This document shows, piece after piece, positions 12,083-27,956 of a stretch of DNA of 33,928 bases. A program made the position numbers and the translations under genes. Below the pieces are notes generated by a model. The model searched no databases. It saw nothing but the letters and a program-made list of their open reading frames with translations, and had not been told where the DNA came from. Every line of letters starts with the position of its first letter. The first letter of the stretch is position 1. This stretch comes from a virus. The stretch spans positions 3,103-37,030 of the IMG/VR virus record IMGVR_UViG_3300008113_006596; one strand, written 5' to 3'.

Positions 12083-13000
12083 ATGATTAACAGTTCAGTC
12101 ATAGAAACACTCTCAAAGTTGTTTAAGCAAAAACCACATGTTCAAAAAGGTGGAGCTGAAATACTTGTGTTTTGTCCTAGCTGTAAACACCACAAGCGAA
12201 AGCTAAACATTAATACTACAACAGGATATTATCAGTGTTGGGTATGTGGATTTAGTGGAAAAAGTTTTTCTTCGTTACTTAAGAAATTAAAAGCCACATC
12301 TGATTATTATCAGATCTTGTGCAAGAATAAAATCAAAATAAATTATGAAGTAACAGAAGAAAAGAAAACATTAATTTTGCCGGAAGAGTTTAAACCACTT
12401 TGTAAGTCTACTAATGACATTATATATAAACATGCTTTAAATTATTGTCTTAAACGCAATTTAACTGTACATGAAATCGTCAGATATAACATTGGTTACT
12501 GTGCATCAGGTTCATTTGTTAACAGAGTAATCATTCCCTCTTATGATGAAGATGGAAATCTAAACTTTTATTGTGGTAGAGATATTTACAATAGTAAGTT
12601 AAAATATAGACTGTGTGACGGCAGCAAAGATATAATAGGATTTGAGTTATTTACAGATTTTACTAAACCCATCACTATTGTAGAAGGTCCATTCGACGCA
12701 CTTTCTGTAAAATATAACGTAGTGCCTTTGTTTGGCAAAACCATGTCCAAGAAATTAAAAATGAAGTTGATCGATTACAGACCACCATATGTTAATGTAC
12801 TTTTGGACAATGATGCTTTAGATTCTAGTTTGAAAATCTGTGACTTTTTACTTTCCAACAATATAGAAGCTCGGTTGATTTTATTGGATGGAAAAGATCC
12901 AAATGAAATTGGTCACGAAAAAACTTGGCAAACCATCAACAGTAGTGTTAGAATAGATGAAAGTCTATTGTATAGATATAAATTAACAAATAAATTATGA
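12083..13000 (+). CDS. Zinc-ribbon/Toprim DNA primase
   Basis: This 305-residue protein makes RNA primers for DNA replication. A zinc ribbon is formed by Cys31, Cys34, Cys52 and Cys55 (C-P-S-C and C-W-V-C), as in CHC2-type primases. The C-terminal half holds a Toprim domain: Glu201 in V-E-G-P-F-D-A-L, then Asp242 and Asp244 in L-L-D-N-D-A, and a D-P-N-E-I-G segment after it. No helicase domain follows, so this is a primase only, comparable in length to T4 gp61 (342 residues). The gene overlaps the next by four bases (ATGA), indicating translational coupling with the recombination nuclease. A replicative helicase partner must be encoded outside this window. Confidence 0.87.
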   Translation: MINSSVIETLSKLFKQKPHVQKGGAEILVFCPSCKHHKRKLNINTTTGYYQCWVCGFSGKSFSSLLKKLKATSDYYQILCKNKIKINYEVTEEKKTLILPEEFKPLCKSTNDIIYKHALNYCLKRNLTVHEIVRYNIGYCASGSFVNRVIIPSYDEDGNLNFYCGRDIYNSKLKYRLCDGSKDIIGFELFTDFTKPITIVEGPFDALSVKYNVVPLFGKTMSKKLKMKLIDYRPPYVNVLLDNDALDSSLKICDFLLSNNIEARLILLDGKDPNEIGHEKTWQTINSSVRIDESLLYRYKLTNKL

Positions 13001-16000
13001 TTGTATTAAAAAATACAGACCAAAAGATCAACTGCGTAATGCATATTGCGGATATTCATATTCGTCTCACTAAGAGACACGATGAATATACATCCGTATT
13101 CGAACGTTTTTATGTTGCGTTAGATAAAGCCAAGACACTTGGTGCAATTCTAGTTATCGCAGGTGATGTATTTCATAATAAATCAGATTTGAGTCCCGAG
13201 TGCGTTAAGATCGGCAGTGATTTTTTGAAAAACTGCGCTGATAGAGTTCCTGTTATTTTGACAGCTGGTAACCATGACGCTACGTTAGCTAACAAGTCTA
13301 GATTAGATTGTTTAACTCCAATCGTGGATAGTTTAAACCATTCAAATTTATATTATCTTAAGAACACAGAAGTTTATAGATTTGAAAACATACTATTTAA
13401 CAATTTTAGTGTATTTGATGATCCAGATAAGTACATAAGATACGAGGATATTCCATCTAAATATCGTGTCGAGACTGATCATCATATCGCATTATTTCAT
13501 GGTCCGGTAAATAATGCAGTTACTGACGTTGGGTATACTGTTAGCAATCGTGCTATTACAAACGAATTGTTTGATGGACATCATATTGCAATGTTGGGTG
13601 ATATTCATAAACATCAGATTCTACAAGAGTTTGATGATAATGAAAACAAACCAATTATTGTATATGCCGGATCTATGATTCAACAAAATCATGGTGAAGA
13701 ACTCAAAGGACACGGATTTTTGATGTGGGATCTAAAGAGAAAGATCTATAAACACTATGAATTAAAAAATGATTATGGATTTTACACTATTGAAATCAAT
13801 AAGGGCAAGTTAATAACTGACATCAGTGACATCCCTAAGAAAGTTCGTATTCGTACACTTTGTTGTGAATCCATTCCATCTCAGGTAAAAGAGATTATTA
13901 ACGAAGTAAAGAATAAATGTGACATCATCGAAACTACATTCAATCGGATTGATGAACCCACAACTGATTTAACTTTAAAATCTGGTCAGATATTTGACAT
14001 CCACAATATTTTTGATGTGGATTATCAAAATAAATTAATTGAAGAAAATCTTCTTTCAAAGAACGTCTCCGCTGATCTCGTCTATAAAGTCAAAGAGTTG
14101 AACAAAACCATTAATTTGGAAATTCCAAAAGATAAAGCTCCAAAGAACATTCGTTGGAAACCAAAAGTATTTGAATTTGACAATATGTTTAGTTATGGAG
14201 AAGGAAACGTAATTGACTTTACCAAACTAAAGGGTACAATTGGATTATTTGCGCCTAACGCAAGTGGTAAATCCAGCATCATGGATGCCTTGGCATTTTG
14301 CGTATTTGATAAATTCAGTAAAGGATATAAAGCAGTCCATGTATTGAATACTCAGAAAATGAGCTTTCGTTGTAAGTTCAACTTTGAAGTAAACGGAGTA
14401 GATTATTTCATCGAAAGAGATGGTAAAGCCGATAAAAAAGGAAATGTCAAAGTTGATGTTAAGTTTTATAAAATTGAAAATGGCGAAGAAGTTCCATTGA
14501 ATGGAGAAGCTCGTAGAAGTACAAATGATATCATTCGTGATTACGTTGGTACATATGAGGATTTTATTCTTACAGTTCTGAGTATCCAAAATAGCAAATC
14601 TGGGTCATTTATTGATTTGGGTCAAACTGAACGTAAGGATCTACTGTGCCAATTTATGGGTTTAACTGTATTTGATCAGTTGTATACAATTGCGAATGAT
14701 AAATTCAAAGAAACAAATACACTACTTAAGAATATTAGTAAAGATCAGTTAATTGAGGAGTTACAGAATGTATCTGGTAGTATTGATTCAAATAACATCA
14801 AAATATCAGAGTGCAATGATAAAATCAAAGAGTATGAAACTTCAAAGGAAACGCATAACAATAAATTATTAGAGTTGTCTAATGACATTGTAAAAACTGC
14901 ATCATTTGATTTTGATATAACTGTATTAGAAGAAGAAAAAGTAAATCTTGATAACAGTATTTCTTCTTGTCAAGTCGATATTGGTCTAAAAAAGACTAAA
15001 TTTGCTGAAATAGAATTACAGCTGAGTAACTTGTCATCATCATTAAAAGCTTGTGAGAATATCGATGATGAATACGAGCAATATAAGTCTTGCAAAGATG
15101 AGGAAGTTAAAAAATCATCTGAGATAGACAAACTTAAAGTTGTTGTCAAGAATAAAATCGACAAGCTTAAAAAGTTGGAAGATCATAAATACGATCCAAA
15201 CTGTACTTATTGCGTTAATAACGTATTCGTGAAAGATGCTATCAAAACAAAAGAAGAGATTGAATCTGACAAAAACAAAGGAAAAGTTTTGGTTGACGAA
15301 TACAATTCTATCAAGAAGAAATTAGAATCATTTGGCGATATAGATCTTCGTTACAAAGAATGCCAACGAGTTAATTCGGAAAAAGTTAAATTGGAAAAAT
15401 CAAGAGAAGTTTTGTCTACTGCAATATTGCGTGATGAAAATGTTTTGATTACCCGTCAGAATAAGTTAAAGACTGTTGTGGACAATATTGATATTTTTTA
15501 TAAGAACAAAGATATCATTGAAAACAACTCTAAATTATTAAAAGAAATAAACGAAGTTAAAAATATTATAAAATCAATTGAAACAGATATTAAAAATATT
15601 AATAGTCGATTGTTTTCAGCTTCTACTGAAAAAGGAAAGTTGGAGCTTCAATACAAGAATACAACCGATCAACTAAACAAAGTAAAAGAGTTGGAAGACT
15701 CGTATGAGGCATATAAGTTGTATACTAATATTATAAGTCGTGATGGTATTCCATATGAAATTATCACTAAGACTCTACCTGAAATTGAGAAAGAAGTTAA
15801 TAACATTCTTCAACAGATTGTAGAATTTACCATCACTCTACAAACTGATGGAAAGAACATAATGACTAATATCGTTTATGACGATAAACGTTGGCCATTA
15901 GAAATGGCAAGTGGCATGGAGAAGTTTGTTAGTGGTTTGGCTATCAGAGTAGCATTAATCAATATTAGTAATCTACCAAGACCAAATATTATTTGTATAG

Positions 16001-16182
16001 ATGAAGGATTTGGCTGTGCTGATAGCGATCATTTAGGTCAGATGGGTGCTTTGTTCTCATATTTAAAACATCAATTTGATTTTATTTGGGTAATTAGCCA
16101 TTTGGATCAGATGAGAGATATGGTAGACGAACAAATTGAAATAAAAAAAGATAATGGATTTAGTAAAGTAGTATATAAATAG
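12997..16182 (+). CDS. Fused Mre11-Rad50 (T4 gp47-gp46 type) recombination nuclease
   Basis: One uninterrupted 1061-residue frame carries both subunits of the SbcCD/Mre11-Rad50 complex. Residues 1 to about 350 are a calcineurin-like nuclease: Asp19 and His21 (D-I-H), Asp57 (G-D-V-F-H), Asn92-His93-Asp94 (G-N-H-D), then later F-H-G-P and G-D-I-H-K-H. Residues from about 385 on are Rad50-like: Walker A A-P-N-A-S-G-K-S-S at 419-427, long coiled coil, a zinc hook C-T-Y-C at 736-739, a return coil, a signature region near 970, and Walker B I-C-I-D-E-G with Asp1002-Glu1003. In T4 these are two genes (gp47, 339 aa; gp46, 560 aa). The product resects DNA ends for recombination-dependent replication. 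It overlaps the primase gene by four bases. The function is firm; that the single chain stays uncleaved is inferred. Confidence 0.95.
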   Translation: MIVLKNTDQKINCVMHIADIHIRLTKRHDEYTSVFERFYVALDKAKTLGAILVIAGDVFHNKSDLSPECVKIGSDFLKNCADRVPVILTAGNHDATLANKSRLDCLTPIVDSLNHSNLYYLKNTEVYRFENILFNNFSVFDDPDKYIRYEDIPSKYRVETDHHIALFHGPVNNAVTDVGYTVSNRAITNELFDGHHIAMLGDIHKHQILQEFDDNENKPIIVYAGSMIQQNHGEELKGHGFLMWDLKRKIYKHYELKNDYGFYTIEINKGKLITDISDIPKKVRIRTLCCESIPSQVKEIINEVKNKCDIIETTFNRIDEPTTDLTLKSGQIFDIHNIFDVDYQNKLIEENLLSKNVSADLVYKVKELNKTINLEIPKDKAPKNIRWKPKVFEFDNMFSYGEGNVIDFTKLKGTIGLFAPNASGKSSIMDALAFCVFDKFSKGYKAVHVLNTQKMSFRCKFNFEVNGVDYFIERDGKADKKGNVKVDVKFYKIENGEEVPLNGEARRSTNDIIRDYVGTYEDFILTVLSIQNSKSGSFIDLGQTERKDLLCQFMGLTVFDQLYTIANDKFKETNTLLKNISKDQLIEELQNVSGSIDSNNIKISECNDKIKEYETSKETHNNKLLELSNDIVKTASFDFDITVLEEEKVNLDNSISSCQVDIGLKKTKFAEIELQLSNLSSSLKACENIDDEYEQYKSCKDEEVKKSSEIDKLKVVVKNKIDKLKKLEDHKYDPNCTYCVNNVFVKDAIKTKEEIESDKNKGKVLVDEYNSIKKKLESFGDIDLRYKECQRVNSEKVKLEKSREVLSTAILRDENVLITRQNKLKTVVDNIDIFYKNKDIIENNSKLLKEINEVKNIIKSIETDIKNINSRLFSASTEKGKLELQYKNTTDQLNKVKELEDSYEAYKLYTNIISRDGIPYEIITKTLPEIEKEVNNILQQIVEFTITLQTDGKNIMTNIVYDDKRWPLEMASGMEKFVSGLAIRVALINISNLPRPNIICIDEGFGCADSDHLGQMGALFSYLKHQFDFIWVISHLDQMRDMVDEQIEIKKDNGFSKVVYK
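16174..16181 (+). promoter_or_regulatory. T4-type late promoter element TATAAATA
   Basis: A perfect match to the T4 late promoter box sits across the stop codon of the recombination nuclease gene, nine bases before the ATG of the first glycosylation gene. A start about six bases downstream would give an almost leaderless message. In DNA this AT-rich an eight-base match can occur by chance. Confidence 0.35.
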
Positions 16183-16190
16183 TATAATCT

Positions 16191-18656
16191 ATGAAAATAT
16201 TATTTATAGCACCACATTTGTCCACAGGAGGATGTCCTCAATATCTTCTTAAAAAAATCGTAGAATTAAAGGATTCAAATGAAGTGTATTGTATAGAATA
16301 CACAGACGTTACAGGTGGAGTTTTAGTTGTACAGAGAAATCAAATCAAAGAAATATTAGGCCCCAAATTGATTACGTTGTATGAAGATAAGTCTACTTTA
16401 ATAGAACATATTAAAAATATAAATCCGGATGTAATTCATTTTGAAGAACTCCCCGAATATTTTTGTGATATCGAAGTAGCTAAACGTATATATGTTGAAA
16501 ATAGAACGTACAAGATTATAGAAACATCTCATGATAGTAGCTTTGATCCGAATAATAAGATGTTTATTCCAGATAGATTTGCGTTTGTAAGCGAATACCA
16601 AAAGGAATTAATGTCGCCATTAGGAGTTAAATCAGATGTTGTGGAATATCCAATTGAATACAAAACTAAGACGGATAGAACTAAAGCATTAAATGATTTG
16701 GGTTTAGATCCAAATAAAATTCACTTTTTGAATGTCGGATTGTTTACTTCTAGAAAAAATCAAGCAGAAATAATTAGATATGCCAAACAACTATTAAATT
16801 ATCCAGTACAATTCCATTTTGTTGGAAATCAAGCTGATAATTTTAGATCTTATTGGGAACCGTTGATGAAAGATTTTCCACATAATTGTAAATGGTGGGG
16901 AGAACGTAGAGATGTAGATACATTTTACAATGCAATAGATGTTTTTCTCTTTACTTCCAGAGGCACGGCAAACGATAAAGAAACAAGTCCATTGGTCATT
17001 AGAGAAGCTATAGGATGGAATTTACCTCTACTGTTATATAATTTACCAGTATATTGTGGAATGTATGATAAATACAAGAATATAACTTGGTTAAAACAAT
17101 CTGAAGAAGACAATATTCAGATTATAAAGTCATTCTTACCCGACACACGTAACAGTTCTAATGAATTATTCAGAGTCGCAACTGTGGACGAAGAAAATAA
17201 AATAGTATTAGATTATCTTGGATCAACATCGTTGAATAGTTGTCTATTATCTATCAAAGATATGGATTCAAGAGCGTGTATCTATTCTAATAATATGGGA
17301 TTAATAAACCCGTCTACTAGTTTTTGGACTATTCCTCTACCACTTCATATAACACACTTTGCATCCGAACCAACGTTTGGTGGATATTTAATTCAAATAT
17401 TTTCAGAAAACAATTTAGTGTTTGAGAAAAATATAAAATATAGAGATATATCAGTAAATAAGCCAATCGTAGATTTCACTAACGAAGAGCCAATTTATAT
17501 GAACTATAAAGAGTTTTTTGTAGACGGTATTTATAATAGTCTAAACTTAGACAATTTAAATGTTGTCATCGATATAGGCGCCAATGTTGGTTTATTCACA
17601 AAATACATGTTATGTAAAAATGCAAAAAAAGTTTTTTGTTATGAACCAAATAAATCAGCATTTGCATCTCTTTCTAAGAACTACAAAAATAATAATTCAG
17701 TATCTTTAAACAATTTGGCAGTATCCACTAACAATGATAAGTTAAGGTTGTATTTAGATCCAAATAATACATTAGTAAGTTCTGCTAAGAGAAATACATC
17801 TAACTTTTATGACGTTGATTCTATCACACTAAAACAAATCTTTATTCAAAATAATATTGACAAAGTAGACTTGATCAAGATTGACATTGAGGGTATGGAA
17901 TATGAACTCGTAGAAAATATGGATGATGATATTTTTAATAAAGTCGATAGTTTTATAATTGAGTATCATGATTTACAATCAATGGATAAATCTACCGGAG
18001 TAAAAAAACTAATTAAAAAGTTAAAAGATCAAAAATACTCTGTAAAATTTGGAGATAATATTTTCAAAAATTGTAGTTATCTTTACGCACATAAAGATGA
18101 AAATGTGAATGATCTCACATTAACAGAAATACAAACTATTAATAATTTTGACACTGATAAGCTCTGGCTTCATTCATATTTGGATACTTATGAAAATTTG
18201 TTTTCTAAATATAGAAACAAAGATATAAAATTATTGGAAATTGGATTTTGTCACGGAGGAAGTTTAAAACTTTGGTCTGAATATTTTGGTAGTAAATCGA
18301 ATATTTACGGTATAGACATTACACTTGAAAATTTACGTTATGATCTTGTAAGACATGATAATATAACATTAGTATGTAAAGATATAAATAATTGTGATGA
18401 ATCCATACTATCTCCGATTATGTTTGATATAGTAGTTGACGATGCAAGTCACATGTTAGAACACCAAATTAAAGCATTTGAATTGTTTAAAAACAGACTT
18501 AATCCAGGAGGTATTCTGGTAATAGAAGACATTGCACCAGAAGCATATGATTATTTCTTAAAACTTGCAGAAAGAACTCCAAACTCTAAATTAATTGATC
18601 TAAGACACATTAAAAATAGATTTGATGATGTTTTATTTGTGTATGAAAATAGATAA
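16191..18656 (+). CDS. Three-domain fusion: GT4 glycosyltransferase, FkbM methyltransferase, second class I methyltransferase
   Basis: This 821-residue protein joins three enzymes. Residues 1 to about 300 are a GT-B glycosyltransferase of the GT4 kind, starting with I-A-P-H-L-S-T-G-G and ending in an E-x7-E element at Glu264 and Glu272. Residues about 430-640 are an FkbM-family SAM methyltransferase: V-I-D-I-G-A-N-V-G with Asp461 and K-I-D-I-E-G-M-E at about 563-570. Residues about 655-821 are another class I methyltransferase-like domain: L-L-E-I-G at 681-685, then V-D-D-A-S-H with Asp750-Asp751, the form seen in CmcI-like and polysaccharide O-methyltransferases. Such a chain could add a sugar and O-methylate it. 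It opens the 8.3-kb cassette just after a T4-type late promoter box. The sugar and the acceptor are unknown; each domain call is by motif. Confidence 0.85.
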   Translation: MKILFIAPHLSTGGCPQYLLKKIVELKDSNEVYCIEYTDVTGGVLVVQRNQIKEILGPKLITLYEDKSTLIEHIKNINPDVIHFEELPEYFCDIEVAKRIYVENRTYKIIETSHDSSFDPNNKMFIPDRFAFVSEYQKELMSPLGVKSDVVEYPIEYKTKTDRTKALNDLGLDPNKIHFLNVGLFTSRKNQAEIIRYAKQLLNYPVQFHFVGNQADNFRSYWEPLMKDFPHNCKWWGERRDVDTFYNAIDVFLFTSRGTANDKETSPLVIREAIGWNLPLLLYNLPVYCGMYDKYKNITWLKQSEEDNIQIIKSFLPDTRNSSNELFRVATVDEENKIVLDYLGSTSLNSCLLSIKDMDSRACIYSNNMGLINPSTSFWTIPLPLHITHFASEPTFGGYLIQIFSENNLVFEKNIKYRDISVNKPIVDFTNEEPIYMNYKEFFVDGIYNSLNLDNLNVVIDIGANVGLFTKYMLCKNAKKVFCYEPNKSAFASLSKNYKNNNSVSLNNLAVSTNNDKLRLYLDPNNTLVSSAKRNTSNFYDVDSITLKQIFIQNNIDKVDLIKIDIEGMEYELVENMDDDIFNKVDSFIIEYHDLQSMDKSTGVKKLIKKLKDQKYSVKFGDNIFKNCSYLYAHKDENVNDLTLTEIQTINNFDTDKLWLHSYLDTYENLFSKYRNKDIKLLEIGFCHGGSLKLWSEYFGSKSNIYGIDITLENLRYDLVRHDNITLVCKDINNCDESILSPIMFDIVVDDASHMLEHQIKAFELFKNRLNPGGILVIEDIAPEAYDYFLKLAERTPNSKLIDLRHIKNRFDDVLFVYENR

Positions 18657-19044
18657 TTTAAAACTTGTCGATTGTACCAGCGAATATTGGCAGTTCGTTC
18701 GTCTTTTGAGACTCGATCCGAGAAATTTATCGGGTTTTGTAAAAACAACTGATATATCCGAACAACAACAAATCGAATATATGAAAAAATATAGTGATAA
18801 ATATAAGATCTGTTTAATGGAAAATATTCCGGTTGGATTTATAGGGGAGATAGATGGGGATATAAGAATTTGTACAGATCATGAGTATAAAAATAAAGGA
18901 ATAGCCAAGTTCATGGTCTGTGAATTTTTGAAAACGAATTCTAATGTATTTGCCAAAATAAAATATGATAATCTACCCAGTTTAAAACTTTTTGAGTCAT
19001 GCGGATTTAAAATTAAATACTTTGTACTTGAGCCTGTTATATAA
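18643..19044 (+). CDS. GNAT-family N-acetyltransferase
   Basis: This 133-residue protein is a compact GNAT. The acetyl-CoA loop is at residues 83-88 (K-N-K-G-I-A, a variant of the R/Q-x2-G-x-G/A motif) after a beta strand ending D-H-E-Y. The C-terminal N-x2-S-L-K-L-F-E-S-C-G-F block is typical of the family. The ATG at 18643 is chosen over one 21 bases upstream (18622) because it gives the usual GNAT N-terminus and a shorter overlap with the preceding gene, 14 bases instead of 35. It lies directly before an aminotransferase-like gene. The pair could make an N-acetylated amino sugar, as in Fuc3NAc, Qui3NAc or related pathways. The substrate is inferred from context. Confidence 0.75.
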   Translation: MKIDNLKLVDCTSEYWQFVRLLRLDPRNLSGFVKTTDISEQQQIEYMKKYSDKYKICLMENIPVGFIGEIDGDIRICTDHEYKNKGIAKFMVCEFLKTNSNVFAKIKYDNLPSLKLFESCGFKIKYFVLEPVI

Positions 19045-19049
19045 ATTAT

Positions 19050-19691
19050 ATGTCTACTAAAAAAACGATTCACAATCCATACAAAGTTGTACAAATGTTT
19101 GAAGAGGAAATAGCTGGTTATACAGGTGCGCCTTATGCCGTGTCCGTGGATAGTTGTACAAATGCTTTGTTTTTGTGTTGTAAATATTTAAATGTAAAAG
19201 AGGTTATAATTCCATCGAAAACATATTTGTCTGTGCCTATGTCCATCATACATTCAGGCGGAGATGTTATTTTTGATACAACTGAAGAATCAAATCATTG
19301 GAGTGGACTCTACCAATTAAAACCATATCCAATATGGGACAGTGCAAAAAGATTGACCAGCAACATGTATATCCCAGGTCAATTCATGTGTTTATCATTT
19401 CATATTAAAAAGCCACTAGCGATTGGAAAAGGTGGTATGATTTTGACAGACAATTTAGATGCGGTAAATTGGTTTAAACGTGCTAGGTATGAAGGTAGAT
19501 CCGAAAAGTTTTATAAACAAGACGATATTGAATTTTGTGGATGGAATATGTATATGTTTCCGCTCTTAGCAGCAAGAGGATTGGAGTTAATGCAAAACTA
19601 TCCAGAACACGTTACAGATGTACAAGAAATAAACGGATATAGGGATCTAACCGAATTTACAGTCTTCAAAACTAAAAAGACTATAAAATAA
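19050..19691 (+). CDS. Short DegT/DnrJ/EryC1/StrS-family sugar aminotransferase-like protein
   Basis: This 213-residue protein matches the N-terminal half of PLP-dependent sugar aminotransferases. The Asp expected to contact the pyridine nitrogen is Asp97 (I-W-D-S-A-K), and the Schiff-base Lys is Lys121 in S-F-H-I-K-K, followed by the usual Gly-rich turn I-G-K-G-G. The family is normally about 370-400 residues, so the C-terminal small domain is absent. No remnant of it appears downstream, where the next gene starts two bases after the stop. It could be a dimeric half-enzyme, a reduced active form or a degenerate one; the retained catalytic residues argue against simple decay. It is flanked by a GNAT and glycosyltransferases, consistent with amino-sugar synthesis. 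Confidence 0.75.
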   Translation: MSTKKTIHNPYKVVQMFEEEIAGYTGAPYAVSVDSCTNALFLCCKYLNVKEVIIPSKTYLSVPMSIIHSGGDVIFDTTEESNHWSGLYQLKPYPIWDSAKRLTSNMYIPGQFMCLSFHIKKPLAIGKGGMILTDNLDAVNWFKRARYEGRSEKFYKQDDIEFCGWNMYMFPLLAARGLELMQNYPEHVTDVQEINGYRDLTEFTVFKTKKTIK

Positions 19692-19693
19692 TA

Positions 19694-21502
19694 ATGAAAT
19701 TAAGTATACTTTTACTAAGTTATAATTATAAACATTATATACAGCAATGTTTAGATTCGTTATTATCTCAAAAAACTAATTTTGCGTTCGAAATTTTAGT
19801 CAGAGATGATGGATCTAATGATGGCACTGAATCTTTTGTAAAAGAAAAGTATGTTGGGGATAGTAGGGTTAGAGTATTTGATTGTTCCAAAAATTTAGGA
19901 GTTTTAAATAATATTCTGTTTTTAATGGACAATGCAAAAGGTGAGTATTTTTGCCATATTGATGCCGATGATTATTTGACGGACAATGATTATTTTCAAA
20001 GAGCCATAGACTTCCTTGACAATAATAACGACTTTAATATATATTGCAGTGGGTATAGATATATAGAGGAGGGTCGTATATATCCAGAAAATTGTTGGAT
20101 GACAAGTCCTATACAGATTATAACCATTGAAAATCTTTTATCAGAAAATTATGTTTCTTTTTGTAGAATATTTAGAAGATTAAAAGTTAATAAAGATATA
20201 TTCGGATCTGTTTATCCCGACTGGATGCTTAATTTTGAATGTTTAAAAAATGATAAAAAAGCGTTTTGTGACGTAAATAGTTGTATCGGAATTTATAGAA
20301 TACATAATAATAGTATGTTTTCTAAAAAAAGCGTCGAAGAAAAAAATCAGATAAACAATACTATGCGCAATGAGTTATTGAACAGATACAACTTATATAA
20401 AAATAATTTATCAAATAGAATGGACAATATAATAGTACACATACATTTATTTCTAAATAAACCCAATTTAGAACAAATCGCTTATGATAATATCAAATTT
20501 ATTAAACAATGTGGATTTAAAGTTTTAATCACTTCTCCTAAAATTTTGCCTGAACAATTTTACGACATAATAGATATATTTTACTATGATAAAGAAAATC
20601 AATTATTTGAAGACTCTTATACCGATGTAGAAGTAATGTATCATTACACTAAGACTCCAGATTTATCATTGTATTTAGGAGTTAAAGAAGTTCAAAAACA
20701 CGGTTTAGCAGTTTTGAGATCGATGATAAAAGGATGTGAAGTAGCATCGTTAAATAATATTAAGTATATAATGAGAATAGAATTCGATGATATACTTGGA
20801 ATTAAATCTATAGAAAATATAAAAAATGTAATTCACGATCTAGAAAACAAAAGTTATGATTTTGATTTAATAAGAAACATATATTCTTACTACACAGATA
20901 TTTCTGTACACTTGATGTTCTACGATTGTAAGAAGTTTTTAGAAGTTTTTGGTCAAATAAAAAACGAATCTGATTACAAGAAAGAATTGTGCAATTTAGG
21001 CATTTGTAATAAAAGCACAATGCTAGAAACATTTATATATTTAATGGTCGAATATTATAAAAATGATAAGAAATTAAATATTAACTATCACAATACATCC
21101 GATCTAAATTCTTTGTATTATGATACCAATTTTAATGTACATCAAAACTGTTTCAGTCTAGTAGATGGGTTGTTAACAGATGTGTGTTATGTGTATAACA
21201 ACGGAATTATACAAAATAGATTGGGTCTTTCTTCTAGAAATTTTGCAAATGAAAATGGATTAATGATTCAATTTTACATCATTTATAAAAATGGAGGAAC
21301 ATATACTTTATATATGAACTCCGGCGGTATAAATTGTTGGAATGTTCATTACATAGAAAACGCCGATACAGTCAATTATGTTTATATAAAACATGGAGAG
21401 AAAGATTTTTACAAAAAATATTCGATTTCAAATTCAGAATCGACATTGACTATTACAGATCTGAATACCAAAGAAACTAGTTTGTCGAAAATCGAATACT
21501 AA
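19694..21502 (+). CDS. GT2 glycosyltransferase with long uncharacterised C-terminus
   Basis: Residues 1 to about 215 of this 602-residue protein are a family 2 GT-A glycosyltransferase: S-I-L-L-L-S-Y-N-Y at the start, V-R-D-D-G-S-N-D-G-T with Asp38-Asp39, and the metal-binding D-A-D-D at 90-93. Residues about 235-480 form a second alpha/beta region starting I-I-V-H-I-H-L and containing R-I-E-F-D-D; it may be another sugar-active domain, but I do not recognise it. The last 120 residues are beta-rich (Tyr, Gly, Asn) and could be a carbohydrate-binding sandwich. The gene is more AT-rich than the sheath and uses mostly AGA for arginine, like the rest of the cassette. It would add a sugar to the growing glycan. 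Donor and acceptor are unknown. Confidence 0.8.
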   Translation: MKLSILLLSYNYKHYIQQCLDSLLSQKTNFAFEILVRDDGSNDGTESFVKEKYVGDSRVRVFDCSKNLGVLNNILFLMDNAKGEYFCHIDADDYLTDNDYFQRAIDFLDNNNDFNIYCSGYRYIEEGRIYPENCWMTSPIQIITIENLLSENYVSFCRIFRRLKVNKDIFGSVYPDWMLNFECLKNDKKAFCDVNSCIGIYRIHNNSMFSKKSVEEKNQINNTMRNELLNRYNLYKNNLSNRMDNIIVHIHLFLNKPNLEQIAYDNIKFIKQCGFKVLITSPKILPEQFYDIIDIFYYDKENQLFEDSYTDVEVMYHYTKTPDLSLYLGVKEVQKHGLAVLRSMIKGCEVASLNNIKYIMRIEFDDILGIKSIENIKNVIHDLENKSYDFDLIRNIYSYYTDISVHLMFYDCKKFLEVFGQIKNESDYKKELCNLGICNKSTMLETFIYLMVEYYKNDKKLNINYHNTSDLNSLYYDTNFNVHQNCFSLVDGLLTDVCYVYNNGIIQNRLGLSSRNFANENGLMIQFYIIYKNGGTYTLYMNSGGINCWNVHYIENADTVNYVYIKHGEKDFYKKYSISNSESTLTITDLNTKETSLSKIEY

Positions 21503-21508
21503 AATAAT

Positions 21509-21526
21509 AAAAAGTTGACACTTTTT
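21509..21526 (+). repeat. Perfect inverted repeat over a promoter -35 box
   Basis: AAAAAGT (21509-21515) and its exact complement ACTTTTT (21520-21526) flank a four-base loop TGAC. The repeat spans the TTGACA box of the promoter before the gene at 21551. It could be an operator, a weak terminator for the preceding gene, or chance in AT-rich DNA. Confidence 0.35.
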
Positions 21527-21543
21527 GTTAACATAAGTATACT
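21515..21543 (+). promoter_or_regulatory. Strong sigma70-like promoter before the GT4-heptosyltransferase fusion gene
   Basis: A consensus TTGACA (21515-21520), a 17-base spacer and TATACT (21538-21543, five of six to TATAAT) lie in the 48-base gap. The predicted start is near 21550, one base before the ATG at 21551, so the message would be leaderless. It would let the last two cassette genes be expressed early and apart from the genes upstream. Confidence 0.6.
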
Positions 21544-21550
21544 ATAAAGA

Positions 21551-23686
21551 ATGAAAATCGTACAAGTTCATACTGGGATTCATCCTATACCACCAAATGG
21601 ATGGGGAGCTGTTGAAAAAATAATTTGGGAATATAAATGTTGTTTAGAAAAGTTAGGCCATAAGTGTGACGTTTTGTATTTAAATGACATAGATCCTAAT
21701 AGATACGACATTGTACACGTTCATCTTGCAAATTTAGCATTGGAATTACACGAAAGAAAAATTCCCTACTACTTTTCATTCCACGATCATCACGCTTACA
21801 TTTACGGAAAAGATTCTTACATATTCGATTTAAACCGTAAAGCGATGAAATATTCCATTAAATCTTTTGTTCCAGCAAAGTATTTAGTTGAGTATTTTGA
21901 CCTTCCAAACGTTGAATATTTGAGCCACGGAGTCAATAATTTTACTTTTCAATCATCGAATAAACTTATCGATAATCATAAACTGTTATGTGTTGCTAAC
22001 AACGGATTTATACATAATCAATCAGAGGACAGAAAAGGATTTGCCTATGCGATTGAGGCGGCTAAAGCATTAAATCTTCCAATCACTGTGGCTGGTCCTC
22101 ACAATAATAGACATTTCTTTGAATCTTATAATTCGGATTACGATAAACTTACGATATTATATAATCTTTCCGAAAAAGAATTGTCAGAATTATATAGAAA
22201 ACATACTATATTTTTACATCCTTCTATCTCCGAAGCAGGTCATCCAAATTTAACTTTATTAGAGGCTATGGCATCTGGTTTACCAGTAGTTGGGACATTT
22301 GAAGATAATAATGAACTAAATGGATTGTGTAAAATAACCAGAGATATAAATGTAATTGTGAATGGAATCACAGATGTCATAAACAATTATAGCGAGTTTC
22401 GTGATAGAGCTTTAAAAACAGCTAAAGAAAAAGATTGGAATAAAATAGTAGAAAATAATTTGTTATTGGGATATAATATGGATGCTAATGTTAATATGAA
22501 AGATAAACTTTTAAAAATTTATACCGAGACCACTATTAAACATTTACCCGTCAGAACAGGTACTAATAAGATTTTGGTTGATTATAATGATGGCTGTAAA
22601 GTTGAAATCGTTGGATCGCATTCTAAAAAATACAAAGTGAGGTTTATAGATAACAAAAATAATAACGTTATATACGAATCCACAATTTCCAATAATATGT
22701 GGTCCAAACCCATAATAAAGTATTTTGTTGATTGGAGAATTGAAGTAACTGATCTGGAAACAAATAGTTGTACAATTTATAATTTCAATTTAAATGGCAA
22801 ACGAGTGAAAATTGTTAATGAGTCCGGAGCACTTGGTGACGGAATAGCTTGGATTCCATGCGTAGATGAATTTCAAAAGAAACATAATTGCATTGTAGAT
22901 TACTATTCCCCTCTTAAAGAGTTATTTCAATCTGAATACGAAAATATAAATTTTTACAATTATAATCACGTTTCCAATTCTGAATATTTTGCTTCTTACA
23001 AGATTGGATGTTTTGATCCAGAAGATCGATCAACAGCCGCAATTGATTGGAGAACGCAAAGTTTACAACAAATGGCAAGTAATATATTAGGAGTAGATTG
23101 TCTATCAACGAAACCTAAATTTACAATGCCAACGAATCTAAAAAACAATTTTGACAAAAAATATGTTTGTATTGGATCGTTATCAACAGCGCAAGCAAAA
23201 TTCTGGAATAACAAAGACGGATGGACTAAAGTAGTTACTTATTTAAATTCTTTGGGATATGATGTGGTTTCCATAGATAAAGGAAATAACATAGGAAGTG
23301 GAATTTATCATAATAAAATACCAGAGGGTACTATTGATAAAACCGGAGAACTACCATTAATTGAACGTATAAATGATCTTCATTTTTGTGAATTTTTTAT
23401 AGGATTGGGATCAGGTTTATCTTGGTTAGCGTGGATGGTTAATAAACCCGTCATTCTAATTTCAGGTTTTTCAGATCCTAAATCAGAATTCTATACTCCA
23501 TATAGGGTACATAATAAAAACGTATGCAATAGTTGTTGGAATGATACAAGTTTTAAATTTGATACGGGTAAATGGGATTGGTGTCCAAGAAACAAAGATT
23601 TCGAATGTTCTTCTAAAATTACATTTGAAATGGTTAAAGAACAAATTGATAAGGTAATTTATAGAAAAAATGAACACGGTTATTAA
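21551..23686 (+). CDS. GT4 glycosyltransferase fused to a TibC/Aah-type (BAHT) heptosyltransferase-like domain
   Basis: This 711-residue protein has two enzymes. Residues 1 to about 325 are a GT4/GT-B domain: N-terminal G-W-G-A-V-E-K loop, H-V-H-L-A-N, and a C-terminal S-E-A-G-H-P followed by L-L-E-A-M-A-S-G-L-P-V-V. Residues about 330-415 are a beta domain ending in Y-F-V-D-W-R-I. Residues about 416-705 begin S-G-A-L-G-D-G-I-A-W and end with four Cys: Cys659, Cys662, Cys678 and Cys686 (C-N-S-C, W-C-P, F-E-C). This layout matches autotransporter heptosyltransferases (TibC/Aah), where cysteines hold an iron finger and the enzyme O-glycosylates Ser in beta-helix proteins. It has its own promoter. 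A role in glycosylating virion or host surface proteins is inferred; the donor sugar is unknown. Confidence 0.8.
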   Translation: MKIVQVHTGIHPIPPNGWGAVEKIIWEYKCCLEKLGHKCDVLYLNDIDPNRYDIVHVHLANLALELHERKIPYYFSFHDHHAYIYGKDSYIFDLNRKAMKYSIKSFVPAKYLVEYFDLPNVEYLSHGVNNFTFQSSNKLIDNHKLLCVANNGFIHNQSEDRKGFAYAIEAAKALNLPITVAGPHNNRHFFESYNSDYDKLTILYNLSEKELSELYRKHTIFLHPSISEAGHPNLTLLEAMASGLPVVGTFEDNNELNGLCKITRDINVIVNGITDVINNYSEFRDRALKTAKEKDWNKIVENNLLLGYNMDANVNMKDKLLKIYTETTIKHLPVRTGTNKILVDYNDGCKVEIVGSHSKKYKVRFIDNKNNNVIYESTISNNMWSKPIIKYFVDWRIEVTDLETNSCTIYNFNLNGKRVKIVNESGALGDGIAWIPCVDEFQKKHNCIVDYYSPLKELFQSEYENINFYNYNHVSNSEYFASYKIGCFDPEDRSTAAIDWRTQSLQQMASNILGVDCLSTKPKFTMPTNLKNNFDKKYVCIGSLSTAQAKFWNNKDGWTKVVTYLNSLGYDVVSIDKGNNIGSGIYHNKIPEGTIDKTGELPLIERINDLHFCEFFIGLGSGLSWLAWMVNKPVILISGFSDPKSEFYTPYRVHNKNVCNSCWNDTSFKFDTGKWDWCPRNKDFECSSKITFEMVKEQIDKVIYRKNEHGY

Positions 23687-24515
23687 TTTTTGCACAGATG
23701 CTCTTGGCGATAGCATTGCTTTTTCGCCATATGCAGATGAATACCAAAAAATTTATGGGGGAAGTGTTTACGTAAAAACAAAGTATTTTAAGATCTTAAC
23801 ATCAGAAAACTCAAATGTTTATTTCGTTGATCCTAAAATGGAAATGAAATACGATAAATATTATGAGATACACTTTCATTTCAAAAACGTGCCTATTCAA
23901 AAGTTAGCGTGTGATCAATTGGGTATAGAATATAAAGAAATTATACCCACAATAAAACAAACAGGCATACACAAGTTTAATAAAAAGAAAAAATACGTTT
24001 GCATAGGTACACATTCAACTGCTCAATTAAAGTACTGGAATAATTCAGCTGGTTGGGATTCTGTAGTCAAGTATTTAAAATCAATGGGGTACGATGTTTA
24101 TGTCATAGATAAAGATGAAGTATTTGGCTCTAAAGAAAAATGGAATACGATTCCTAAGAAAGCATTTAACGAAACAGGCAACTATCCAATAGAATATAGA
24201 ATAGAACAGTTAAAAAATTGTTCTTTCTTCATAGGACTAAGTAGCGGTTTAAGCTGGCTAGCTTGGTCATTGAATAAAAAAGTAGTATTAATTTCAGGCT
24301 GTACAGATGAGTATAATGAATTTACAAGCAATTGTTATAGAGTTATTAATAAAAATGTATGCCATGGATGTTTAAACGATCCGTCCATAAATAACAAAGA
24401 TGGCATATTAAGTGGTTGGATGTACTGCCCAAGACAAAAAGACTTTGAATGCAGCAAAAAGATTACATTTGATATGGTAAAAGAACAAATCGACCGAGTT
24501 ATACGAGAATTATAA
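23670..24515 (+). CDS. Stand-alone TibC/Aah-type heptosyltransferase-like protein
   Basis: This 281-residue protein is a paralogue of the C-terminal half of the preceding gene product. It keeps the opening A-L-G-D-S-I-A-F loop, the H-S-T-A-Q-x-K-Y-W-N-N segment, the F-I-G-L-S-S-G-L-S-W-L-A-W nucleotide-sugar region, and four Cys at the same places: Cys231, Cys234, Cys253 and Cys261. It lacks both the GT4 part and the N-terminal beta domain. The gene overlaps its neighbour by 17 bases. Two diverged copies side by side suggest different acceptors or a hetero-oligomer; known TibC is a dodecamer. The fold and iron finger follow from family knowledge; the sugar donor need not be a heptose. Confidence 0.8.
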   Translation: MNTVINFCTDALGDSIAFSPYADEYQKIYGGSVYVKTKYFKILTSENSNVYFVDPKMEMKYDKYYEIHFHFKNVPIQKLACDQLGIEYKEIIPTIKQTGIHKFNKKKKYVCIGTHSTAQLKYWNNSAGWDSVVKYLKSMGYDVYVIDKDEVFGSKEKWNTIPKKAFNETGNYPIEYRIEQLKNCSFFIGLSSGLSWLAWSLNKKVVLISGCTDEYNEFTSNCYRVINKNVCHGCLNDPSINNKDGILSGWMYCPRQKDFECSKKITFDMVKEQIDRVIREL

Positions 24516-24608: not shown

Positions 24609-27600
24609 ATGCCAATACAAGAAGGTGGAACATTCGCACCAACACAAAATATAGTAAGTCCGGGAGTTTTTACCCGTGAAAATGACCTTTCGGCACTAGC
24701 CCAAGGAGTCGCAAACATAGGTGGAGCCATAGTTGCTCCATTTGCAGACGGTCCAGCATTCTTCCCAGCAACAATTTCTGATGTTTCTACATTGGAAAGT
24801 ACATTCGGTGTAGCTGATGGAGTATACTACGGACCATATACCGCTAAAGAATATCTACAGCAACAAGGTATCGTTACCGTTGTTCGTGTAGGTGGTCTTA
24901 CTGGTTACTGGCAGAAGAATCCATTGATTGTATATGCTCAACCAGGTATATGGCAACGTGCTGGTAGTGCGGGTGCTCTACAAAGAACTAAATCATATGT
25001 ATTTGTAGATTATACTTCTACCACTGATTTAAATAGTGTATTTAACTATACACCAGCGCTCAATACTACTACTGGTATATTGACAATCAATAGTGGATCT
25101 CAATTTCTTGGTACATTTCAAGTACAAGCAGCTGAAGATCCAACTTTGAATCCAAATTCCACAAGTGGTAGTACATTGTATGCAAATAAACAAATACAAT
25201 TTACATTCTTACAACAAGCTACTTTAAGTGGTTCTGGTAAACTATTTGTATCTAGTAGCGTACAAGGTACGAATTATAGCGGATCTACAAAATTACAATA
25301 CGCTTTATCTGAAGCAGGCGGCGGAACAAACGCTGGTATAAGTGGTTCATTTGGATCAACTTCTATTTTGATTGAAAGCACAAATGGGGATCTAATTTCA
25401 TCTGATACCATTTATCTAAGAAATGCTGCTATTTCGTCATCCCGTGTAAGTGGCGGATGTAATGCACAAATATATGTTGTTGGTGTAATAAGTGGTTCAT
25501 TTGGTAAATTTACCGGTAAATTCACTCCAAGTACAGGAGTCGTTGCGGATCCATGTAATCCAAATATCGACGGCCGTCAAAATATGATATTGTCAGTATT
25601 AGCAAATACTCAAAATGCTGCTACACAATTTAGCAGTGATTATGAAGTATATGGATTTAATACTAGTACATTATCACAATTAACAAGTAGTGTATTCCCA
25701 TATAAGGGATTGATCAATCCAAATGAAAATGTTTACAATTTGGCATTGAGATATAGTTTCTCAAATCCAAATGGTAGTAATAGTTCAGGTACATACGGTT
25801 ATTATGATTTCAGTTTGAATGAAAATGATAATAACTATATCAAAGATGTATTTGGAATTGATCCAACCGTTGGAAATCCAGATAAACAAATTGCGGGTCA
25901 AAAAGTAGAAGCTGCTTACAACTATGTACTGTTCGAAGACAGTATCAAGAAGTTCGTAGCTGAAAAGACTAATGCGCTTGGTTGGAAATTGCAAATTGGT
26001 ACAAATAATCTATCAGGTAGTGCAATTGTAGGCGAACCACTTAAATTCGTAGACGAATATAGCACCAATCTAAACGCTGGCGACAGTCAATTTGGTATTA
26101 CTAATGCTTACACTCCATGGGTATACAGTCAAAAGATTGCTCCATTCAAAGGTAGTGCAAATGAAGCTGCTGTACCAACTAAGTTCCAATTGTTCAAAGC
26201 TCATACTTTGAGTGATGGTACATTGAGCAACCGCAAGTACAAGATTGAAATTAGTAATGTTAAGTTGGCAGGCACAGTACCAGGCAGTGATTGGGGTTCA
26301 TTCACACTAGGAGTTCGTGCTTACAGTGACACTGATAAAAAGCCTAAGTATTTGGAAATCTTCCAAAACTTGAATCTTGATCCAGACAGTGCAAACTTCA
26401 TTGCACGTAGAATTGGCGATAGATATGCTTATATTACTTACGCAGGTAAGATTATTCAATATGGCACTTATGCTAATTTGAGTAGATATATTAGAATCGA
26501 AATGGCAGATGTAGCTTATCCAGTTGCATGTGTACCATACGGATTTGAATCTTATACTACTCCAATCGACAGTACAGCTAGTATTTATGTACCATATGTA
26601 CAATATAGCAAAGCTAGTATCTATGGATTAGCACCAGGCAAATATCCATCTGGAACAGTATTTGGCGCCGTCCCAGGTTCAGATTCAGAAATTCAATCTC
26701 TATATCCAACCTCTTCTTTTGGAGTTGGTGTAGATAACAACACAAAACAATACTTCAACCCACTACCATATTTTGGAAGTGCTGATAGTAATGGTTTGAA
26801 TATCGACTTCGATCTTGAAGATAAGGTTTATGGTACATCTACTGCTAAATATTATGCTCAAGGTACCTCAGCATGTACTGGTTCTCTACTAGCTCCAAGT
26901 TTGAGCGGTAGTATTCCTTCAGTATATGACGCTGTAAATGAATCTACTTATGTTAAACTACGTAAATTCGTAATTGGATTCCAAGGTGGATTTGAAGGTC
27001 AATGGCCAGCAATTCCAATCAATGTAGGTAGTAACATTACCGCTGGTAATACACAAGGTCTAGATTGTACAAATATCAACAGTCCAGGTAGTATCGCATA
27101 CAAACAATGTATTGCTGCTCTAAGTAATGCTGATGAGTTTGATATCAATTTGATCGTATTGCCTGGTATCTTCCGTTCTCTACACAGTTATGTTACCGAA
27201 TTGGTAATTGATATGTGTGGAACTCGTCAAGACTGTTTCTACATCATGGATAACGTAGTATTCCCAGCAAGTAACCAAACTGTAGGATTGATCGACGCTG
27301 CTATCAACAGTGTAGCTGACATCGACAGTAATTATGTTGCCACTTATTATCCTTGGGTTAAAATCCTAGATACTAATACCAACAAGATTATCAGTGTTCC
27401 ACCTTCAGTAGTATTACCAGCAGTTTATGCTGCTAACGATAATGCTGCTGCTGAATGGTACGCTCCAGCCGGTCTAAACCGTGGTGGTATCCCACAAGCC
27501 GTACAAGTACTCGATAGAGTAACACACGGTGAACGTGATACACTATATGAAGGTCGTGTAAATCCAATCGCAGCATTCCCTGGCCAAGGTATCGTAGTTT

Positions 27601-27956
27601 GGGGTCAAAAGACTCTACAAATTCAACCAAGCGCTTTGGATCGTATCAATGTTCGTCGTTTGTTGATCAACTTGAAGAAGTTTATCGCAAGTTCAAGCAA
27701 CTACTTGGTATTCGAACAAAACGTTGCTTCTACACGTAACCGTTTCTTGAATATCGTAAATCCATATTTGGAATCGGTACAACAACGTAACGGTATCTAC
27801 GCATTCCAAGTTAAGATGGATGCTGAAAACAATACTCCTGACTTGATTGATCGTAATATTCTATATGGTCAAATCTATATCCAACCAACTAGAACTGCTG
27901 AATTCATCATACTTGACTTCAACATTCTACCAACTGGAGCAAGTTTCAACGTATAA
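24609..27956 (+). CDS. gp18: Contractile tail sheath protein (T4 gp18 type), enlarged
   Basis: This 1115-residue protein forms the contractile outer sheath of the tail. The N-terminus (residues 1-105) shows the sheath start: S-P-G-V-F-T-R-E, then a strand with G-P-A-F-F-P and V-V-R-V-G-G. The C-terminal 250 residues are the conserved sheath core: P-S-V-V-L-P-A-V-Y-A, then A-P-A-G-L-N-R-G, N-P-I-A-A-F-P-G-Q-G, W-G-Q-K-T-L, and the L-I-N-L-K-K-F-I helix. T4 gp18 has 659 residues; the extra length lies mainly at about 110-480, a Ser/Gly/Thr-rich beta region that should protrude on the sheath surface. Its arginines near the C-terminus are nearly all CGT, unlike the upstream cassette, which fits high expression. 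It has the best ribosome site here and a strong terminator behind it. Confidence 0.97.
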   Translation: MPIQEGGTFAPTQNIVSPGVFTRENDLSALAQGVANIGGAIVAPFADGPAFFPATISDVSTLESTFGVADGVYYGPYTAKEYLQQQGIVTVVRVGGLTGYWQKNPLIVYAQPGIWQRAGSAGALQRTKSYVFVDYTSTTDLNSVFNYTPALNTTTGILTINSGSQFLGTFQVQAAEDPTLNPNSTSGSTLYANKQIQFTFLQQATLSGSGKLFVSSSVQGTNYSGSTKLQYALSEAGGGTNAGISGSFGSTSILIESTNGDLISSDTIYLRNAAISSSRVSGGCNAQIYVVGVISGSFGKFTGKFTPSTGVVADPCNPNIDGRQNMILSVLANTQNAATQFSSDYEVYGFNTSTLSQLTSSVFPYKGLINPNENVYNLALRYSFSNPNGSNSSGTYGYYDFSLNENDNNYIKDVFGIDPTVGNPDKQIAGQKVEAAYNYVLFEDSIKKFVAEKTNALGWKLQIGTNNLSGSAIVGEPLKFVDEYSTNLNAGDSQFGITNAYTPWVYSQKIAPFKGSANEAAVPTKFQLFKAHTLSDGTLSNRKYKIEISNVKLAGTVPGSDWGSFTLGVRAYSDTDKKPKYLEIFQNLNLDPDSANFIARRIGDRYAYITYAGKIIQYGTYANLSRYIRIEMADVAYPVACVPYGFESYTTPIDSTASIYVPYVQYSKASIYGLAPGKYPSGTVFGAVPGSDSEIQSLYPTSSFGVGVDNNTKQYFNPLPYFGSADSNGLNIDFDLEDKVYGTSTAKYYAQGTSACTGSLLAPSLSGSIPSVYDAVNESTYVKLRKFVIGFQGGFEGQWPAIPINVGSNITAGNTQGLDCTNINSPGSIAYKQCIAALSNADEFDINLIVLPGIFRSLHSYVTELVIDMCGTRQDCFYIMDNVVFPASNQTVGLIDAAINSVADIDSNYVATYYPWVKILDTNTNKIISVPPSVVLPAVYAANDNAAAEWYAPAGLNRGGIPQAVQVLDRVTHGERDTLYEGRVNPIAAFPGQGIVVWGQKTLQIQPSALDRINVRRLLINLKKFIASSSNYLVFEQNVASTRNRFLNIVNPYLESVQQRNGIYAFQVKMDAENNTPDLIDRNILYGQIYIQPTRTAEFIILDFNILPTGASFNV

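Follow-up and report, generated by a model that had tools for sequence, protein, structure and literature searches.

We analysed a 33.9-kb window (the whole stretch of DNA under study, 33,928 nucleotides) from the 37,030-base virus record IMGVR_UViG_3300008113_006596, which derives from a freshwater T4-like phage, and followed up a cassette of six open reading frames (ORFs; here genes A to F) for glycosyltransferases, methyltransferases, an acetyltransferase and an aminotransferase. On balance, this cassette is probably a system for virion glycosylation, which adds O-linked glycans and methyl groups to the shaft of the phage's own fibre, a reading built on the TibC-type enzymes E and F and on the co-occurrence of such enzymes with Ser/Thr-repeat fibre genes in related viruses. 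A wider account, which we advance with less conviction and as a tentative proposal, is that a phage-specific branch of the ring-forming TibC enzymes, fused to GT4 and partnered by a GT4-FkbM-methyltransferase protein, might coat proline-poor collagen-like tail fibres, built of hundreds of Gly-Ser-Ser/Gly-Thr-Ser triplets, with O-methylated O-glycans replacing hydroxyproline, as a mobile enzyme-plus-substrate system of several aquatic-phage lineages including a 735-kb huge phage. Below, L numbers denote loci and G numbers whole records or contigs.

TibC-type enzymes of the cassette

The two genes at the 3' end of the cassette were annotated as follows.

21551..23686, + strand: gene E, 711 amino acids, GT4 plus full TibC-type O-glycosyltransferase
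about 21551-22495, + strand: GT4 domain of gene E
about 22544-23662, + strand: TibC part of gene E, with N-terminal barrel, catalytic Asp and four-cysteine iron finger
23670..24515, + strand: gene F, 281 amino acids, second TibC-type catalytic domain without the N-terminal barrel, overlapping the 3' end of E

A sequence-only reading of the window, made without database searches, had called both proteins TibC-like, and profile searches bore this out: against TIGR04414, for which the NCBI equivalog cut-off is 200 bits, E scored 358.5 bits (3.8e-107) and F 214.5 bits (2.2e-63), both exceeding the cut-off. Searches with phmmer against the TibC structure 4rap gave 1.8e-75 for E and 4e-44 for F, the barrel of E matched PF21129 (1.6e-8), and the predicted model of E (mean predicted local distance difference test score, pLDDT, 88) aligned with TibC at a Z score of 43.6 over 366 residues and 1.8 Å. 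TibC forms a 12-mer ring that moves heptose onto autotransporter serines, using the catalytic Asp110 and the sugar-binding residues Thr226, Lys230, Arg286 and Trp305 (PMC4358343). All five residues were aligned and present in E and in F, as were all four iron-finger cysteines (339, 342, 358 and 370), Arg286 being substituted in many other viral TibC members. At the position of Pro300, described as the determinant of donor stereoselectivity and occupied by Ser in AAH (PMC4358343), E has Gly and F has Ser; the two enzymes may therefore use different donors. Sequence and active-site residues place E and F in the Aah/TibC (BAHT) family, to which E is also assigned by its predicted fold, and F by itself, lacking the barrel at 281 amino acids, appears to be a partial member.

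Co-occurrence of TibC and Ser/Thr-repeat fibre genes

When viral contigs were scanned with E, 48 loci were recovered, some of them on near-identical contigs and one (L005) on the contig of the window itself. The E homologue reached the catalytic C-terminus in 47 of the 48, and 39 of these exceeded 600 amino acids, the length of the GT4-TibC fusion. Of the 43 loci whose upstream DNA extends to 2.5 kb or more, near-identical contigs included, 42 have an A-like gene within 7 kb 5' of E, showing that A and E form the conserved core. On the 3' side of E, 28 of 45 loci have the tail sheath gene within 3.5 kb and 9 have the gene of a Gly-X-Ser repeat protein, which makes 37 with either of the two; the eight with neither are L040, L041 and L044-L049.

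Repeat genes adjoined the core in several arrangements. They stood directly 3' of E in L032-L036, L050, L028, L030 and L043, directly 5' of A in L015, L018, L019 and L052, near A-E in L042, and no more than ~2 kb away in Microcystis phage Mel-JY01 (L003), an isolate of Microcystis elabens. In L032-L035 and L050 the neighbour of A-E was a giant ORF of GSSGTSG-type triplets, 3,326 amino acids long as cut at the locus end, that of L033 consisting of 40% Ser, 30% Gly and 15% Thr. The 735-kb huge phage (L002; LR756501.1) also carries A- and E-like neighbours, with a repeat-bearing ORF beside A on the opposite strand and 1,439 + 7 matches to the Ser/Thr-repeat pattern in its record.

To count repeats, we searched the DNA for runs encoding four Gly-[Ser/Thr]-[Ser/Thr] triplets in a row; the reversed pattern gave zero matches in all whole records and in the random-drawn and Gly-Pro-X contigs tested. 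TibC was present in 37 of 53 whole viral records, and repeats were found in 25 of these 37 compared with none of the 16 without TibC. Among the sheath-drawn records G006-G035 (30 of the 80 sheath loci, hand-picked as long contigs), the corresponding figures were 10 of 14 and 0 of 16. The repeat gene lies ~27-30 kb 3' of the sheath start in G002, G004 and G008, past the capsid gene (called Gp23 by Pfam in the G020 homologue). For contigs that extend 27 kb or more beyond the sheath start, a rule chosen after the fibre position had been seen in those three records and with coverage worked out by hand, repeats occurred in 8 of 8 TibC-positive and 0 of 7 TibC-negative records (Fisher 1.6e-4, a test that wrongly treats records as independent). 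The eight positive records that reach the fibre locus were G006-G009, G023, G028, G030 and G035, of which G028 is weak.

Same locus, different gene

A gp15 sheath-stabiliser-like gene (PF16724 in G009, 26.7 bits against a cut-off of 25) precedes the fibre locus. Right after it, TibC-positive relatives carry the repeat gene, which in G009 and G035 encodes 2,002 amino acids with 53% Ser+Thr and 380 triplets; other repeat genes at this locus were cut by the ends of contigs or of fetched stretches. At the same locus, the TibC-negative relatives G012, G018, G020, G024 and G031 encode proteins without repeat tracts. G025 and G026, which have the same sequence, encode a 459-amino-acid repeat-free protein homologous (49-54%) to that of G012/G020, and the gp15-like gene was not found in the G025/G026 stretches examined.

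The relatives' candidate acceptor has a Gly-X-Y shaft, its 380 Gly-X-[STA] triplets being arranged in tracts. Measured by the PF01391 cut-off of 27.2 bits, two repeat-protein pieces scored too low (26.8 and 21.9), and the next gene scored above it (28.6 bits). A C-terminal piece of the G008 repeat protein matched the Peptidase_S74 chaperone domain (1.2e-10), which is typical of phage fibres and spikes.

The fibre genes of G024 (L511:4047-6521) and the TibC-positive G028 (L505:14668-17319) have their C-terminal 370 residues in common (45% identity), and no match was detected between their N-terminal parts, as if fibre halves had been swapped. This kinship suggests that the TibC-positive and TibC-negative proteins are versions of one fibre locus.

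Independent draws and the distribution of TibC

Contigs were also drawn by a more specific repeat pattern, by an arbitrary 17-mer and by a Gly-Pro-X pattern. Each draw comprised 80 loci, of 120 (repeat), 100 (random) and 120 (Gly-Pro-X) stretches, and contigs of at least 30 kb alone were tested (47, 34 and 36, respectively; median lengths 60, 54 and 58 kb), the repeat-drawn L200 and L211 having been dropped as already found via TibC. TibC was detected in 19 of the 47 repeat-drawn contigs, all best matches being below 1e-100, compared with 1 of 34 random contigs at E<1e-50 (3 of 34 at E<=1e-3) and 1 of 36 Gly-Pro-X contigs. That single Gly-Pro-X record, G146, holds 356 Ser/Thr-repeat matches, and G143 of the same set has a single match and no TibC. 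The random-control contig G111 (L286, L368) encodes a TibC-like 784-amino-acid protein at 35109-36284.

The TibC domains of repeat-drawn contigs were scattered across the viral tree, and 11 extracted domains (10 repeat-drawn, 1 Gly-Pro-X) formed 8 clusters at 60% identity. In a quick tree without bootstrap, 31 viral and 10 bacterial representatives were parted by one branch with a Shimodaira-Hasegawa-like approximate likelihood ratio test (SH-aLRT) value of 100. Identity between viral TibC domains and the 10 bacterial representatives, which were sampled from the best 80 bacterial loci, did not exceed 45%.

Several observations weigh against fibre shafts as the acceptor. TibC was absent from 28 of the 47 repeat-drawn contigs, for which fragmentation or other enzymes are possible reasons; the random set's two repeat-bearing contigs (G115, G122) had no TibC and its strong-TibC contig G111 no repeats; and 12 of the 37 TibC-positive whole records had no repeats. 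From their contig coordinates, 8 of these 12 end short of the expected fibre place, either at most ~18 kb past the sheath start (G001, G003, G011, G021, G027 and G033) or just 5' of A, the repeat-gene site of that lineage (G037 and G040). Strict-pattern repeats were also missing from four long TibC-positive records (G046, 228 kb; G047, 154 kb; G050, 133 kb; W03, 636 kb). In G028, just 2 of 14 pattern matches fall at the fibre gene and 12 elsewhere, and the C-terminal half of that gene's product is the part shared with the TibC-negative protein of G024. The sheath tree requires 2-3 changes of the TibC label, near-identical records included, and because independent changes are so few the sheath-lineage comparison alone proves little. 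ADP-heptose synthase (TIGR02199, rfaE domain II) was sought in 39 of the 53 records, of which 30 have TibC, and no match exceeded the cut-off, the one sub-threshold match being in G040. For the window's own phage we infer the acceptor from relatives, because its record ends before the fibre locus: the 37-kb record stops at the portal, and neither the window nor the first 3.2 kb of the record yielded a Ser/Thr-repeat tract. In this lineage the cassette lies ~27-30 kb from the fibre, whereas the sheath adjoins it. The close relative G002 (E 76% and sheath 83% identical to those of the window) terminates within its repeat gene, which suggests that assemblies may break at repeats.

Part of the association could stem from a shared host or habitat. 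TibC and repeat fibres might also merely both be common in one kind of large aquatic phage, the true acceptor being another protein or a small molecule, which we consider quite unlikely. Such co-commonness would accommodate the few changes in the sheath tree, the repeat-drawn contigs and the four long records in which one partner is missing, and the small random set, which shows no co-occurrence; FkbM, too, is commoner in repeat-drawn contigs (over cut-off in 17 of 47 against 5 of 34 random), being less specific than TibC. It sits poorly with the spread of the repeat-drawn TibC domains over the viral tree and their division into 8 clusters, and with the joint change of TibC and repeats within one sheath lineage.

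Tail sheath and host envelope as alternative targets

The sequence-only reading had chiefly proposed the neighbouring tail sheath, through its large Ser/Thr-rich insertion, as the acceptor.

24609..27956, + strand: tail sheath with large insertion (PF04984, PF17482), neighbour of the cassette and candidate acceptor without support

Its position close behind E in those 28 of 45 loci, including lineages without a recognised SbcDC flank, speaks for this possibility, as does L358, which was drawn by repeat rather than by sheath and keeps the same gene order; furthermore, Ser+Thr make up 19.6% of the insertion compared with 11.0% of the termini (L005, identical to the window's sheath). Among 59 distinct complete sheaths (best 80 loci of the sheath scan kept), however, the Ser+Thr content of the middle region was 17.7-28.0% without E upstream and 19.6-24.9% in long sheaths with E, insertion-bearing long sheaths occurred without the cassette, and the 569-amino-acid sheaths of L022 and L037, from another lineage, adjoin an A-E pair yet are too short for the insertion. 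The insertion was therefore rejected as a co-varying acceptor, its Ser/Thr content not tracking the cassette, and the sheath itself appears unlikely to be the target.

The enzymes might instead modify the host envelope, in the manner of superinfection exclusion, as suggested for pelagimyophage glycosyltransferases, an explanation that we judge rather improbable. In its favour, loci for surface polysaccharides commonly contain GT2/GT4 and DegT genes, and D matches PHROG 841 (GtrB-like, O-antigen conversion). Glycosyltransferases of SAR11 phages have been argued to alter the host envelope, the best represented family there being GT8 (PMC7029224). Host-envelope modification would leave both the TibC-repeat co-occurrence and the adjacency of these genes unexplained; the family of E and F acts on protein serines (PMC4358343), and none of the six cassette proteins matched flippase-like Pfam families. 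The earlier preference for a Ser/Thr-rich virion protein over the host surface is thus upheld indirectly, in that TibC goes with Ser/Thr-repeat fibre genes, with the fibre in place of the sheath insertion.

Genes A to D

The four upstream genes of the cassette were annotated as follows.

16191..18656, + strand: gene A, 821 amino acids, GT4 + all-beta + FkbM + second S-adenosylmethionine (SAM) methyltransferase
about 16191-17150, + strand: GT4 domain of gene A (PF00534, 5e-12)
about 17169-17438, + strand: all-beta domain of gene A (strands predicted at residues 327-416)
about 17562-18041, + strand: FkbM methyltransferase of gene A (TIGR01444, 1e-28)
about 18120-18566, + strand: second, C-terminal SAM methyltransferase of gene A (phrog_21658, 3e-21)
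18643..19044, + strand: gene B, GNAT-type acetyltransferase overlapping the 3' end of A (PF00583, weak)
19050..19691, + strand: gene C, compact DegT/DnrJ/EryC1-type aminotransferase, 213 amino acids (PF01041, 3e-23)
19694..21502, + strand: gene D, GT2 glycosyltransferase with a long C-terminal extension (PF00535, 5e-26)

The domains previously read in A (GT4, FkbM and methyltransferase) were all recovered, with the refinement that there are two methyltransferase domains. Its AlphaFold model had a mean pLDDT of 74, and the GT4 part aligned with HepE at a Z score of 26; the second methyltransferase was modelled poorly, residues 638-726 falling below 50. A beta domain common to A and E was considered and dropped, the profile comparison being unconvincing (hhalign probability 4%), and is kept as a lead only. 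Gene B matched PF00583 with an E-value of 2e-4 (21.9 bits, cut-off 20.7) when 18622-19044 was used as the query, and the ATG at 18643 may be the better choice of start. The DegT call for C, on which, together with the TibC calls, the sequence-only reading had staked its proposal, was sustained by the PF01041 match. In the best 2 of 13 PDB matches both ends of C align, including the catalytic-lysine motif; its SFHIKKPLAIGKGG motif keeps the aligned lysine, which we take to be the catalytic residue. Short DegT homologues of C (209-213 amino acids, 48-95% identical) occur in L006, L009/L112 and L039, so the 213-amino-acid form is not a local truncation.

Upstream of E, D-like, C-like and B-like genes were found in 16, 4 and 2 of the 43 loci, the two B-like cases including L005. 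The GNAT and DegT genes are therefore a rare optional layer in the window's close relatives, and synthesis of an amino sugar, as earlier proposed, is not a general feature of these cassettes.

Proposed mechanism and donor sugar

The first sugar, either heptose or another nucleotide-activated sugar from the host, would be placed on Ser/Thr residues of the fibre shaft in the cytosol by the TibC domains of E and F while virions are being made. The GT4 domains of A and E and the GT2 of D would then lengthen the glycan, which FkbM and the second methyltransferase of A may cap by O-methylation, and C and B, if present, could provide an N-acetylated amino sugar. Such glycans might stand in for proline/hydroxyproline, stabilising and solubilising the long fibre, and surface variation is possible. 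No hydroxylase was found among the six cassette proteins (Pfam). A phage-made heptose was also considered and rejected, given the absence of over-cut-off TIGR02199 matches in the 39 related records.

Relation to known glycosylation systems

With bacterial TibC/Aah (TIGR04414, PDB 4RAP/4RB4), whose traits also include a dodecameric ring, an ADP-D,D-heptose donor and an autotransporter acceptor, E and F share the match above cut-off, the key residues and the iron finger, and E also the predicted fold. They differ in being phage-encoded, in the N-terminal GT4 of E, in the missing barrel of F and in the replacement of Pro300 by Gly (E) or Ser (F), and profile searches recognised no autotransporter gene in the window. 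In mycobacteriophages, capsid and tail-tube subunits carry C-terminal glycans, as cited in PMC12619734; there, likewise, the presumed substrates of phage-encoded glycosyltransferases are proteins of the phage's own virion, and TibC is not named in that account. Spore BclA and the mimivirus collagen-like proteins offer sugar-bearing Gly-X-Y shafts for comparison, X and Y being mostly Ser/Thr in the phage repeats. BclA glycans contain O-methylated and amino sugars. Glycosylation of BclA is believed to improve its hydration network, and a stabilising role has been proposed (PMC8968730). The E. coli prophage fibres EPclA/B use collagen triple helices, and the recombinant EPclA protein is described as not glycosylated in the same source (PMC3368898).

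Virion glycosylation in mycobacteriophages and glycosylated collagen-like proteins are thus already known; what appears to be new here is the tie between TibC-type enzymes and phage fibres, no report of such enzymes acting on phage fibres having been found in searches of the open-access literature. Targets of large-phage glycosyltransferases are usually guessed (DNA, host surface or virion), whereas here one enzyme type is tied to one kind of virion protein, and co-occurrence together with position yields a specific, testable enzyme-substrate pair. If true, TibC-type protein glycosylation would extend from bacterial adhesins to viruses and would hint at how a nearly proline-free collagen-like fibre stays stable, a lead for glycoengineering and biomaterials. 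Mel-JY01, an isolate with both TibC and repeat genes, makes the idea testable now.

Cassette layout, flanking genes and further observations

The six genes lie on one strand between the gene for a recombination nuclease fusion and the tail sheath, abutting or overlapping with internal gaps of at most ~50 bases; the order and overlaps given in the sequence-only reading were confirmed, as were its domain calls by profile searches.

12997..16182, + strand: SbcD-SbcC fusion, upstream flank (phrog_100, phrog_77)
16174..16181, + strand: TATAAATA, beginning 17 bp 5' of gene A

Locus L006, whose E is 78% identical, keeps the order A-B-C-D-E-F with one additional gene ahead of A, showing that the cassette is not an assembly artefact. 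In the flanking fusion, the SbcD and SbcC (gp47/gp46-like) recombination nuclease subunits form a single protein of 1,061 amino acids, a length about equal in many relatives, and gene maps of relatives without the cassette place this fusion directly 5' of the sheath in many cases. Together with the sheath, a gp20-type portal and a terminase, it is among the T4-like marks identified in the window by profile searches. An 885-amino-acid FG-GAP-repeat protein is encoded at 8355-11012, inside the presumed tail-protein block.

We take TATAAATA to be identical to the T4 late-promoter core, which is weak evidence. Within the 100 bp before the gene, it occurs in 6 of 44 distinct stretches 5' of A-like genes and in 11 of 21 stretches 5' of the sheath, compared with a background of 29 of 2620; late expression of the cassette from this site is at most a possible reading, given the 6 of 44 relatives in which it precedes A. 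Sigma-70-like sites numbered 72, near the shuffled level of 63.2 (standard deviation 6.7).

Further genes accompany the core in other phages. In L091 (7746-9389), L093, L097 and L100 an extra ORF of ~547 amino acids lies between E and the sheath; that of L091 starts with MKIVGSYIGAHDVGFSLIENN and presumably resembles a carbamoyltransferase. Two repeat-drawn contigs (L361:657-1475 and L363:1-819) carry, beside or near the TibC gene, an ORF with the motif SSLPRSGSTL that we take to be sulfotransferase-like, hinting at sulfated glycans in other phages. Finally, the terminase large-subunit gene is in two parts around a gene of ~250 amino acids in L010 (15599-18273), L011 (19210-22007) and L494 (13966-16763), which suggests an intein or homing element.

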